Translations under genes and position numbers: made by a program
Part shown: positions 19,155 to 26,844 of the stretch, piece after piece
Layout of the letters: each line of letters opens with the position of its first letter
Numbering within the stretch: position 1 is the stretch's first letter
Origin: Acidobacteriota bacterium
Lineage (GTDB): Bacteria; Acidobacteriota; Aminicenantia; UBA2199
Direction of reading: 5' to 3'
Assembly (NCBI GenBank): GCA_025456175.1
Contig: JALOLC010000004.1
Span: 1-34,950 of the forward strand
Length of the DNA stretch: 34,950 bases
The notes under the pieces: generated by a model
Database searches by the model: none
What the model was told of the DNA's origin: nothing
The model's input: only the letters and a program-made list of their open reading frames with translations

Positions 19155-19156
19155 AG

Positions 19157-19260
19157 GTCGAACTCTGGTTAAAAGTGAAGCAAACCTCTTCTATTTCCAC
19201 CACTCTTGACATTTTCCCTTGCTCTAAGCCTAACACCCTCAACCCTGGACCCTATACCCT
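19157..19260. repeat. heptamer element E: right array of four 7-nt units (19232-19259), weak left array (GTCGAAC, GTTAAAA, GTGAAGC at 19157-19181)
   Basis: AACACCC TCAACCC TGGACCC TATACCC; reverse complement GGGTATA GGGTCCA GGGTTGA GGGTGTT. Confidence 0.7.
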
Positions 19261-19265
19261 CTTTT

Positions 19266-20575: not shown

Positions 20576-20598
20576 GGTCCCGGGGATTCTGATGCGCT

Positions 20599-20719
20599 CG
20601 GTGTACGGTTGACGGTATAGGGTGGACGGTAAACGGTGGAGGAAAGCGGCAATTTTTCGTTATTGTGTCGTTTGTTCCAGATTTCTTACCATATACCGTA
20701 CACCGTACGCCGTGAACCG
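20599..20719. repeat. heptamer element B: inverted arrays, six CGGTNNA units left, five TNNACCG units right
   Basis: Left 20599-20640 CGGTGTA CGGTTGA CGGTATA GGGTGGA CGGTAAA CGGTGGA; right 20685-20719 CTTACCA TATACCG TACACCG TACGCCG TGAACCG. Confidence 0.9.
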
Positions 20720-21812: not shown

Positions 21813-23501
21813 ATGAAGCGTGGCGCGCTGATCGCCCTGCTGGTGGTCATTGTCATCCTGCTGGGGCTGTTCATATTGGGCGGATTCATCTACATGCAGT
21901 TCACCCAGGAACCGTATGTCCCCGAGAGGGCTTACCTGAAGATCGACCTCGGTGGTGTCGTTGCCGAGACTGCGCCAAGCCGCTTCCCCGGCATGTCCGG
22001 CGCCGCGTTCTCCATTCATGATCTCTGGTACCAATTGGAGCGGGCCGCCAGGGACGAGCGCATCCAGGGCATTCTGCTGCGCGTCCAGTATCTGGACACC
22101 GGCTTCGCCAAGATCGAGGAGATCGGCCGCCTGCTCAAGAGATTTGCCGCCAGCAAGAAGCCGCTGGCGGCCATCGTTGTCGACGGCGGCCTCAAGGAGT
22201 ACTACCTGGCCTCCTTCGCCGACAAGGTCATTATGTTCCGGGGCGGCATGCTCTCGGTAAGCGGCATCGGCGCCGAGGCGCTCTTCATGAAGAACACCCT
22301 CTCCAAGCTGGGGGTGCAGGCCGACATCATCCATATCGGCGATTACAAGACCGCGCCCAATACGTTCACCGAGGAGCGCATGACCCCGGCCCACCGCGAA
22401 TCCACGCAGGCGCTGCTCGACGACCTTTACCAGGCGGTGATCGAGGGCATCGCCGCCAACCGCAAGCTGGACCCGCTCGCGGTCAGGAAGGTTCTCGACC
22501 GCTCGCCGCTGCCAGCAGAGGAATACCTCAAGGCCGGGATGCTCGATTCCATCGCTTGCGAGGACGACCTGTTCAAACTGATGCCCAAGACCCTCCCCGA
22601 GGTCGAGTTCCGCACCTATGCCAAAACGCGTGCGCCCCTGCCTTTCAGCGGCAGCAAGAAAATCGCCGTGATCTTCGCCTCAGGCGAGATCAACATGGGG
22701 CGCAGCGGCGGCGACTCCTTGTTCGGCGGCGATATCCTGGGCGCCGATACCCTGGCCGGGCAGCTGCGCAGCGCGCGCAACAACTCGGCGGTCAAGGCGG
22801 TCGTGCTGCGCGTCGACAGCCCCGGGGGCTCGGCCGTCGCCTCCGACGTCATCCTGCGCGAGGCCGAGCTGCTGGCCCAGAAGAAGCCCCTGGTCGTCTC
22901 CATGTCCGACGTGGCCGCCTCGGGAGGCTATTGGATCGCGCTGGCGGCCCACAAGATTTTCGCCGCGCCCCAGACCATCACCGGCTCGATCGGGGTCTTC
23001 TCGGGCAAGTTCGTGCTGAAAGGATTCTATGACAAAATCGGCGTCACCAAGGAGATCGTCACCACCTCCGAATACGCCGCCATGTATTCCGATTACAAGC
23101 CCTTCTCGGCGAACGAGCGCAGGAAGGTGCTGGCCGAGATGGAGCAGATCTATGCCGCTTTCCTGAAAAAGGTCGCGGCCAACCGCAAGCTGCGCGTAGC
23201 CGACGTCGAGCCGATCGCCCGCGGCCGGGTGTGGAGCGGACGCTCGGCGCTGAAGCTGCGCCTGGTCGATGGCCTGGGCGGCTTGAGCGCCGCGCTGGAC
23301 GAGGCCCGGAAGCTGGCGCGCATCCCGCAGAACGAAAGGTTCGGCGTGCGCGTCTACCCGCAGAAGAAGTCGTTCTTCGAGATGATCTTCGACCTGACCG
23401 GCGCCAAGGTGCAAAACCCGCTCGACGTCAAGGCGCGGCTGCAGGCCTACCGTCGCTTCTTCCCGGCCATGGCCATGCCCTTCACGCTGCGCTGCTTTTA
23501 A
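21813..23501 (+). CDS. sppA: signal peptide peptidase SppA, 67K type
   Basis: Two S49 domains; LRVDSPGGSAVASDVI, SMSDVAASGGYWIA; SD aaggag. Confidence 0.93.
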   Translation: MKRGALIALLVVIVILLGLFILGGFIYMQFTQEPYVPERAYLKIDLGGVVAETAPSRFPGMSGAAFSIHDLWYQLERAARDERIQGILLRVQYLDTGFAKIEEIGRLLKRFAASKKPLAAIVVDGGLKEYYLASFADKVIMFRGGMLSVSGIGAEALFMKNTLSKLGVQADIIHIGDYKTAPNTFTEERMTPAHRESTQALLDDLYQAVIEGIAANRKLDPLAVRKVLDRSPLPAEEYLKAGMLDSIACEDDLFKLMPKTLPEVEFRTYAKTRAPLPFSGSKKIAVIFASGEINMGRSGGDSLFGGDILGADTLAGQLRSARNNSAVKAVVLRVDSPGGSAVASDVILREAELLAQKKPLVVSMSDVAASGGYWIALAAHKIFAAPQTITGSIGVFSGKFVLKGFYDKIGVTKEIVTTSEYAAMYSDYKPFSANERRKVLAEMEQIYAAFLKKVAANRKLRVADVEPIARGRVWSGRSALKLRLVDGLGGLSAALDEARKLARIPQNERFGVRVYPQKKSFFEMIFDLTGAKVQNPLDVKARLQAYRRFFPAMAMPFTLRCF

Positions 23502-23522
23502 GAAATTAAGACAGAAATCGTT

Positions 23523-23671
23523 ATACGTGACGCGTGACGCGAAACGCGTAAAAAAAACTGCTTTATTGAAATTATCGGAAGGCTGAAAAATAATGCAATC
23601 ATGTTGCGTGCTGAAAGATATAGAGATTAATAATTGAGTTCATCTCTTCCGCGTCACGCGTTACGTGTTAT
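23523..23671. repeat. heptamer element C: inverted arrays of GTGACGC-type units around an AT-rich core
   Basis: Left acgtgacgcgtgacgcg (23525-23541) is complementary at 16/17 positions to cgcgtcacgcgttacgt (23650-23666); 108-nt core. Confidence 0.9.
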
Positions 23672-23730
23672 CCCCTGGCGGGGACCTACGGGCGCGTCAC
23701 GATTTGCAATGGTTTTTCGATCGGTCAGCC

Positions 23731-24294
23731 CTAATCCCACCTGATCTCGTACTCCGAGACCGGCTGGAAGTTGGTCAGCGACTTGGTGATCGCCACCTTG
23801 ACGTTCTTGCAGCCCGAGATCTCGAGCGCCCGCTCCATCCAGCCGCAGATGCGGAACTCGGTTGTCTTGTCCAGCTCCGGAAAATGGCTGATGCGCAACA
23901 GGCAGAACTTTTGGTCGCTCATCGGCACCGAGATGGCGCAAGGGCGGTAATAGGATGAGAGGAATTCGCCGGCCTTTTCGATCAACGAGGCGGTCTTGGG
24001 GATTTTGACCAGGAGCTTCAACACGCCATGAAAGCGGATGTCGGCGCTCATGCGCCCGAAATCCCAGGCGGCCTTCTTCAGATCCCAGTCATAGAAGAGC
24101 TGGGCGATATTGGCCATGGGCTCGATCAGCATCTCTTTCAGCGGAAACCAGGCTTCGGGGTTGATCTCGGATGAATAGACCCTGCGCGCCCCGGGCGAGA
24201 TCAGCTCCAGCCATTTTTTCAGCCCGTACTGGCCGAACTTGTCCAGGATCATCTTGGGGGTCGATGCGATGATCACGCCTTTGACTTCGGTCAT
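23731..24294 (-). CDS. conserved hypothetical protein (possibly DUF2378/V4R/HNOB-like fold)
   Basis: ORF with SD (aaaggaggagcgaa ATG); KGVIIASTPKMILDKFGQYGLKKWLELIS...; family assignment uncertain. Confidence 0.6.
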   Translation of the reverse strand: MTEVKGVIIASTPKMILDKFGQYGLKKWLELISPGARRVYSSEINPEAWFPLKEMLIEPMANIAQLFYDWDLKKAAWDFGRMSADIRFHGVLKLLVKIPKTASLIEKAGEFLSSYYRPCAISVPMSDQKFCLLRISHFPELDKTTEFRICGWMERALEISGCKNVKVAITKSLTNFQPVSEYEIRWD

Positions 24295-25080: not shown

Positions 25081-26715
25081 ATGAACAGGGAGAAGCGGTC
25101 CGGCATGCCCGAATGGCAGGCGCTGAAGAATCACGCGCAAAAAATAAACGGTCTGCATCTCTGCGAGCTGTTTGCCGCCGATCCCATACGGGGAAGCCGC
25201 TTCGCGGCCGAGGGCGCGGGCATCTACCTCGATTATTCCCGCAATCAGATCACCAGCGAGACCATGGAGCTGCTCCAGGCGCTGGCCCGGGCCTGCCGGC
25301 TCGGGAAAGAGATCGCCAGGCTGTTCGCGGGCGAAAAGATCAACGAAACCGAGAACCGTCCCGTGCTGCACTGGGCGCTGCGCGACTTCTCCGGACTGCC
25401 GGTCATGGTGGACGGCCAGGATGTCATGCCCCGGGTGCGCCAGGTGCGCGAGCGCATGGCCGCGGCCGCCGGGAGGATTCGCGCCCGAGGCTGGCTGGGC
25501 TGCAGCGGCAAGCCCCTGAGCCATGTAGTCAACCTGGGTATCGGCGGCTCCGACCTGGGGCCGCGCATGGCGTACAAGGCTCTGCGCTTTTACGCCCAGC
25601 GCGACCTCCATTTTCATTTTGTCTCCAACCTTGACCCCGGGCACCTGGCGGAAACCCTGCGGCCGCTGCCCCCCGAAGAGACCCTTTTCATCATCGCCTC
25701 CAAGACCTTCACCACCCAGGAGACCATGGCCAACGCCGCCGCGGCCCGCTCCTGGCTCATGGAGCATTACCAGGACCCAATTGCCCTGCGCGCCCATTTC
25801 GCCGCCGTGACCGCCAACCCGGCGGCGGCACATGACTTCGGCATCGCCGCCGAGAACATTTTTGAATTCTGGGAGTGGGTGGGGGGGCGCTATTCCCTCC
25901 TCTCGGCGGTGGGGCTGCCGCTGATGATGGCTGTCGGGCCCGAACGCTTCGAGGAGCTGCGGCGCGGCTTCTGGGAAATGGACAGCCATTTCCGCGACGC
26001 GGCCTTCACCGCCAACCTGCCGGTTCTGCTCGCCCTGCTGGGGATCTGGCAAGCCGGCTTCATGGGACGGAGCACCCATGCCGTGCTGCCCTACGACCAG
26101 TACCTGGAGCGCTTCCCGGCCTACCTGCAGCAGCTGGAGATGGAGTCGAACGGCAAGGACGTCGACCGCAACGGCGAGGAAGTCGATTACCCGACCGGGC
26201 CGGTGCTTTGGGGCGAGCCCGGCACCAACGGCCAGCATGCGTTCTATCAGCTCCTGCACCAGGGCACGCCGGCCGTTTCCTGCGACTTCATCGGCCTGCG
26301 CCGGTCGCTGAACCCGTTCCGCGACCACCATGAACAGCTGCTGGCCAACATGATCGCCCAGGGGCAGGCGCTGGCCTTCGGCCGCGACCGCGAGGAGCTG
26401 GAGCGGGAAGGCGTGCCCGCGACGCAGCTGCCTTTCCGCGTGTTCTCCGGCAACCGCCCCAGCAACACCATCCTGGCCGACGAACTCAATCCCTCGACCT
26501 TGGGGCGGCTCATCGCCCTCTATGAGCACAAGGTCTTCGTCCAGGGGGTGATCTGGAACATCTTCTCCTTCGACCAGTGGGGGGTCGAACTCGGCAAGAA
26601 ACTGGCCAACCGCATCCTGCCGCGACTCAAGGGGCAGGCCGCGCCCGGGTCGGATGAGGACAGCTCGACCCGGGCCTTAATCGACTATGTGAGCGCAGTG
26701 AAACGTGAACAGTGA
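25081..26715 (+). CDS. pgi: glucose-6-phosphate isomerase
   Basis: VVNLGIGGSDLGPRMAYKAL, SKTFTTQETMANA, FDQWGVELGKKLA. Confidence 0.96.
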   Translation: MNREKRSGMPEWQALKNHAQKINGLHLCELFAADPIRGSRFAAEGAGIYLDYSRNQITSETMELLQALARACRLGKEIARLFAGEKINETENRPVLHWALRDFSGLPVMVDGQDVMPRVRQVRERMAAAAGRIRARGWLGCSGKPLSHVVNLGIGGSDLGPRMAYKALRFYAQRDLHFHFVSNLDPGHLAETLRPLPPEETLFIIASKTFTTQETMANAAAARSWLMEHYQDPIALRAHFAAVTANPAAAHDFGIAAENIFEFWEWVGGRYSLLSAVGLPLMMAVGPERFEELRRGFWEMDSHFRDAAFTANLPVLLALLGIWQAGFMGRSTHAVLPYDQYLERFPAYLQQLEMESNGKDVDRNGEEVDYPTGPVLWGEPGTNGQHAFYQLLHQGTPAVSCDFIGLRRSLNPFRDHHEQLLANMIAQGQALAFGRDREELEREGVPATQLPFRVFSGNRPSNTILADELNPSTLGRLIALYEHKVFVQGVIWNIFSFDQWGVELGKKLANRILPRLKGQAAPGSDEDSSTRALIDYVSAVKREQ

Positions 26716-26826
26716 AAAGTGAAAGGGGAAGGAAATCTCGGGATCGATTGTCGGTGAATTCCGCTTACCAAATCGCTTCATTCGCGGGGCGTATGGCTCC
26801 TTCACTTTTCACTTTTTACTTTTCAC
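26698..26826. repeat. heptamer element D: inverted arrays of GTGAAAN units
   Basis: Left 26698-26725 GTGAAAC GTGAACA GTGAAAA GTGAAAG; right 26799-26826 CCTTCAC TTTTCAC TTTTTAC TTTTCAC. Confidence 0.9.
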
Positions 26827-26844
26827 TTTATCTTTTGCTATAAT
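26815..26844 (+). promoter_or_regulatory. predicted promoter TTTACT-N18-TATAAT, -10 ends 6 nt before ATG
   Basis: -35 lies within the right heptamer array; TATAAT 26839-26844. Confidence 0.55.

Follow-up and report, generated by a model that had tools for sequence, protein, structure and literature searches.

Inward-facing pairs of heptamer arrays form a class of intergenic hairpins in an Acidobacteriota genome

Introduction

What kind of element occupies positions 23523-23671 of the window, the 34,950-nt stretch of DNA analysed here (assembly GCA_025456175.1, contig JALOLC010000004.1; GTDB lineage Acidobacteriota; Aminicenantia; UBA2199), where two short stacks of 7-nt units face each other across an AT-rich core? 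The original prediction for this locus, element C, held that it shares its architecture with two other elements of the window, B and D, that each locus has a unit (here, dialect) of its own, and that the two arms of a locus are generated or homogenised together. We find at least 54-60 short hairpins of this kind in the genome, element C among them, each built from two inward-facing heptamer stacks. We consider it probable that element C is a mosaic, mobile hairpin, akin to REPINs, MITEs and foldback elements, that belongs to a large population in the genus and is kept mainly at the 3' ends of transcripts.

Results

Element C is placed between two convergent genes (Table 1), and the heptamer units from which it was first recognised are present in the sequence where they had been reported. 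RNA folding of positions 23502-23690 gave an uninterrupted 19-bp stem, 23523-23541 with 23650-23668, closing a 108-nt loop; the fold has a z-score of -5.0 on the plus strand and -4.8 on the minus strand, and none of 200 dinucleotide shuffles was equally stable. The arm score of 16 is the best in this intergenic region, where 300 dinucleotide shuffles reached a mean of 8.5 and a maximum of 14. The core is as AT-rich as had been claimed: its GC content is 30.5%, whereas the genome stands at 63.7% and the rest of the intergenic DNA at 54.7%. No match to a known transposon was recognised. Elements B and D do have the same build, and hairpin z-scores across the folded elements range from -4.4 to -5.0. 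Rfam assigned no family to elements B-D, its only matches in the window being two tRNAs and the SRP RNA.

Table 1. Elements and flanking genes in the window
Feature	Position	Strand	Basis or remark
Element B, architecture of element C, GTNNACG dialect	20596..20719	.	Between divergent genes
Peptidase family S49 (SppA-like) gene, left flank, reads towards element C	21813..23501	+	Pfam PF01343, E=7.8e-74
Element C, left heptamer array (GTTATAC GTGACGC GTGACGC GAAACGC GTAA)	23519..23551	+	Period-7 scan; stem half 23523-23541
Element C, AT-rich core, 30.5% GC	23552..23646	.	With arm margins, loop 23542-23649; homologous core at the orthologous site of G015
Element C, right heptamer array (reverse complement GTAACGC GTGACGC GG)	23649..23671	-	Period-7 scan, RNA fold
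187-aa protein gene, right flank, reads towards element C	23731..24294	-	No Pfam match; conserved in Aminicenantes
Element D, architecture of element C, GTGAAAA dialect	26696..26832	.	Stop codon of upstream PGI gene inside left arm

Several smaller observations concern the window itself. The core of element C contains a promoter-like TTGAAA-17-AATAAT at 23566-23594, which may merely reflect its AT-richness. Among relatives that share the 187-aa gene, the label is mostly Candidatus Aminicenantes or Acidobacteria, and in one case Chrysiogenales. A convergent intergenic gap at 19155-19264 holds a degenerate heptamer array (ACCCTCA ACCCTGG ACCCTAT ACCCTCT) that is probably a decayed element, and at 1648-1713 a perfect 33-nt tandem duplication, TTTAAACCCGCCCGTACATGAAGACACGAAGAA, is flanked by inverted GGGCGGG blocks and represents a different kind of intergenic repeat.

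The source genome is a draft metagenome bin of 2.19 Mb in 188 contigs, 73.5% complete, of which about 1.46 Mb, roughly two thirds, was covered by the analysis. Within that portion there are 126 period-7 segments, whereas period 8 has 17, period 10 has 8 and period 13 has 2, and 60 non-overlapping inverted period-7 pairs lie outside predicted genes. The arrays hold about 4-5 units per arm and likewise sit outside predicted genes. Their polarity is nearly uniform: among 61 pairs of adjacent oriented arrays within 200 nt of each other, 58 face inward, 3 are parallel and none faces outward. The paired pattern GTRA-N3-GTRA facing TYAC-N3-TYAC was found inward 25 times with a spacer of 20-50 and 37 times with a spacer of 50-80, and outward 0 times; control patterns at period 5, 6, 8 or 9 had no matches. 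Inward polarity can also be read from the listed sites of three congeners (G001, G008 and G015). The dialects include GTGAAAA, GTRACGC and GTNNACG, and the main ones contain no run of three G.

Rarer arrays have units of 6, 8 or 11 nt. An 11-nt polypurine unit, AGGGAAGAGAG, forms paired inverted arrays at L029:3988-4100, L030:7996-8120, L010:2496-2620 and L032:7420-7532, a separate family of like architecture. Paired hexamer arrays (GTGATA, GTTWGT) occur at L109:5847-5999 and at site B2 in L166, L168 and L171; a 6-nt unit preserves the reading frame of a gene that it enters.

The arms of one locus do mostly match in dialect. When pairs were chosen by adjacency alone and not by similarity, both arms had the same dialect in 46 of the 58 adjacent inward pairs, against 17.8 expected by chance and a maximum of 28 in 10,000 permutations, which preserved dialect frequencies; the dialect patterns themselves were drawn up after viewing the array list. 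The claim that each locus has its own unit did not hold, since many loci use identical dialects and other species have them too. The agreement between arms could arise if the arms were copied from or converted by each other within a locus, by quasi-palindrome template switching, arm-to-arm conversion or templated synthesis. In L088, a GTRATGA copy, both arms differ from the related GTRATGC elements by the changed base; this would suit such copying, as does the dialect common to both arms. Full arm copying, however, predicts scores near arm length, about 30-38, and in GTRAAAA, the commonest dialect with 32 loci, left and right arms score 19.56 at their own locus and 19.43 across other loci (p=0.36), so that arms of one dialect are as similar between loci as within them. 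Mixed-dialect arms within a single element (L107:1028-1125, L077:6862-7067, L077:6956-7067) also count against copying. Moreover, comparison of element C with its orthologous site in G015, where the core is still homologous, shows that G015 has an extra GTGACGC unit in its left arm, whereas individual point changes distinguish the right arms, and the arms have thus changed independently. We therefore regard arm-to-arm copying or homogenisation, as originally proposed, as quite improbable. A common origin of both arms would fit the combination of dialect agreement and independent change better than ongoing copying.

Relative to gene calls from our own simple codon model (91% coding), gaps between convergent genes, 13% of intergenic length, hold 25 of 54 elements (binomial p=4e-9), and those between divergent genes, 35% of intergenic length, hold 5 of 54 (binomial p=2e-5). 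A gene stop codon falls within the outer arm of 29 of the 54, and for elements between tandem genes the upstream stop codon is a median of 3.5 nt away. Three successive units of the GTRA type suffice to place TGA or TAA in every frame, and such an array can therefore end any reading frame that enters it. This strong concentration of elements in convergent gaps and at stop codons is what would be expected if the elements were first of all selected transcript 3' ends, acting as bidirectional hairpin terminators or stabilisers of mRNA 3' ends and renewed locally from available repeats, with mobility secondary. We regard this main rival, which is compatible with a mobile hairpin, as a real though doubtful possibility. 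Canonical hairpin-plus-T-run terminators were found at 0 of 66 gene ends with an element and at 25 of 405 without (p=0.035), a weak post hoc test whose result is only suggestive of mutual exclusion between the two; the elements also appear to have kept their arms while their cores drifted to no similarity. On the other hand, some elements do lie between divergent genes, several dialects are without the T-runs that an intrinsic terminator has, and no excess of G-U-tolerant changes was seen on the transcribed strand in tandem contexts. Placement at gene 3' ends could also mirror just selection against insertion into promoters and genes.

Orthologous sites bear on the same question. Site C was read in 14 congeners, whose flanks are about 70-89% identical and too diverged for clean insertion sites to be recognised. 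Two congeners (G013 and G015) have GTRACGC, the dialect of the window, and the closest by flanks (G011) has a solo left arm only. Others carry different units, namely GTNNACG with a nested GGAATTT element (G001 and G008), GTWCCAY (G003 and G004) and GTTCGAN (G002 and G014), and five (G005, G006, G007, G009 and G010) have about 20-55 nt and no element. At site D, the dialect is GTGAAAA in the window, G001, G002 and G004, GTYAGAC in G013 and G015, and GTRATTA in G009. Site B has GTNNACG in the window and G013, GTRACGC with a GTGAAAA array nested inside in G004, a GTGATGC/GTGATGA arm with half a GGAATTT element in G011, and remnants in G001, G008 and G015. This variety of dialects at sites B, C and D points to repeated occupation of the same intergenic gaps by different units, and since the wording of the unit differs between species at one site, the elements have the look of fast-turning-over, mobile-type hairpins. 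That site D is occupied in every congener read there, in three dialects, favours selected transcript ends, whereas the empty site C of five congeners and the solo arm of a sixth speak against them. The turnover could instead reflect a templating activity that, at fixed sites, converts both hairpin arms to a new dialect, so that site and architecture are inherited and the unit is replaced independently in each species; we think this unlikely. As a separate observation, 76 bases of L016:4333-4426 (G000:C21:4335-4410) are identical to G013:C8:5513-5588 in genomes that otherwise differ by about 20%, which may reflect recent transfer or cross-binning.

For some dialects, movement of whole elements is suggested by dispersed copies that are 84-91% identical. 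A 110-bp GTKATGC element (L077:7554-7663) has four further copies in its own genome, which are 88-91% identical across almost one and the same interval (query 755/758-864), as well as more diverged and truncated ones, and the flanks differ between copies. In an alignment of seven relatives the core and the tail CGGAGCCCTGAAAGTTCGTTCACG are kept and the left arm varies: around the homologous core it is GTRATGC in some, GTRACGC in two (L077:6950-7068 and L091) and GTRATGA in L088, whose right arm also carries the changed base. Cores are likewise related between copies of the nested GGAATTT family, and elements are nested within one another at sites B and C. No core homology beyond that of shuffles was found between GTRAAAA loci. 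Because the GTRAAAA cores are unrelated, whole-unit copying of that dialect can be inferred only from other families; such copying is evident from sequence in few of them.

Ordinary replication slippage, producing microsatellites in AT-rich intergenic DNA in which pairing is incidental, could account for the difference in unit number between orthologues and would accord with the over-representation of heptamer repeats in bacteria (PMC4692102). It cannot, however, yield 58 inward and 0 outward neighbours, their agreement in dialect, or dispersed copies that are 88-91% identical with their cores. As a full account it is refuted, and we hold it to be highly improbable.

No target-site duplication was seen by eye at the GTKATGC copies, and no partner transposase with the same ends was found; the congeners are too diverged for clean empty sites. 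RAYT (PF01797) was considered as a driver and rejected. It is of low copy number, with one gene in the own genome, at a locus without arrays, and none above cut-off in the array-rich G003 (93% complete). RAYT genes of the genus generally have no arrays in their 1.5-kb flanks, and at most one congener locus (L187) has a pair nearby.

Beyond this genome, the paired pattern occurs in 66 of 396 Acidobacteriota genomes drawn. Nearly all congeners drawn are rich in it and the remainder of the class has almost none; the backward control is mostly zero. Distant pattern-rich genomes (forward matches 92 in G079, 99 in G282 and 53 in G098) use their own units, GTGACAG, GTRAATC and GTGAGCA among them. Across the 16 genomes of the genus the repertoires vary widely: nine genomes have 12-177 GTRACGC triplets, one has 4 and six have 0-1 (177 in G004, 109 in G015, 12 in the window's genome, 0 in G009, G010 and G012), and GTTCGAN triplets number 123 in G001, 117 in G014 and 7 in the window's genome; some of these pattern and triplet counts contain matches that overlap inside a single array. 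Two IMG/VR contigs (L208:7483-7539 and L209:9558-9606) also carry a paired array element of the GTGAAAA dialect.

Discussion

Each element comprises two inward arrays, with about 3-6 degenerate heptamers apiece, that enclose a variable AT-rich core. We favour the reading of element C as a mobile hairpin, and propose the following course. Families would spread as units through an activity supplied in trans, and each may have been founded with one dialect in both arms; arms would agree in dialect because the founder did. Later, each arm would acquire changed units independently of the other, through slippage and point mutation, and mosaics would result when elements recombine. Insertions would survive mostly at gene ends, sites at which transcripts arriving from either direction can fold into a long hairpin. 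In what is the least certain step, that hairpin may act as a bidirectional transcript end or as a block to exonucleases.

Different dialects, solo arms and empty orthologous sites stand side by side in this genus and offer a natural experiment by which mobility, mutation and function can be separated. Should the elements serve as transcript ends, the 3' hairpins of this uncultured lineage would be of a non-canonical and interchangeable kind; should they be mobile, some enzyme would have to move them.

A literature search on tandem repeats of Aminicenantes found nothing relevant, and the comparison is thus with other groups. The TAACTGA repeats of Beggiatoaceae (PMC4679880) are likewise intergenic heptamer arrays, abundant and containing stops in every frame, but they are direct, lie upstream of start codons and have one dialect, with one inverted case. 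REPINs and BIMEs, in which REP sequences form inverted doublets (Bertels and Rainey 2011, PMC3116915), resemble the elements described here in being extragenic, dispersed and mosaic inverted doublets with a variable spacer that form hairpins and occur alongside decayed singlets. A REP, however, is a single short palindrome and is tied to a RAYT, whereas each arm here is a tandem array of heptamers, not a palindrome, and no link to RAYT was found. REP units measure 20-40 nt and carry a GTAG/GGAG-type tetranucleotide; the GTRATGC family ends in CATCACGTAG, an end that element C does not have. The MITE trait of homologous copies in unrelated flanks is seen for GTKATGC, and related copies for nested GGAATTT, but not for GTRAAAA cores. 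Internally repetitive inverted ends around a variable middle recall Drosophila Foldback and Galileo (PMC3573991); those eukaryotic elements are much larger and belong to known transposase families, and the likeness is in architecture only.

The closest known system is that of the convergent GGGAATC array pairs of Xanthomonas (PMC4692102). Intergenic heptamer arrays, typically of about four units and scattered along the chromosome, are known there as GGGAATC/(GGGANTN)n and in Nostoc as GGGGA(C/T)T (Rehm et al. 2015, PMC4692102). The Xanthomonas arrays lie on average 28 nt from gene ends, are under-represented between divergent genes, have no known function, and form 70-75 convergent, inward-facing inverted pairs per genome (PMC4692102). 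The elements described here share with them intergenic tandem 7-nt units, inward-facing neighbours, placement at gene 3' ends and rarity between divergent genes. They differ in that their units are not GGGANTN: Xanthomonas has one G-rich dialect, read as a G-quadruplex, whereas about a dozen dialects, mostly without G-runs, occur in the single genome analysed here, with agreement between arms, species-specific repertoires and turnover of dialect at orthologous sites. Convergent pairs of heptamer arrays were thus an oddity of Xanthomonas, limited to one unit and left unexplained. Here the same architecture is seen in Acidobacteriota, with many units per genome, repertoires that are particular to each species, arms that agree, and sister species in which the unit at one and the same site has been replaced.
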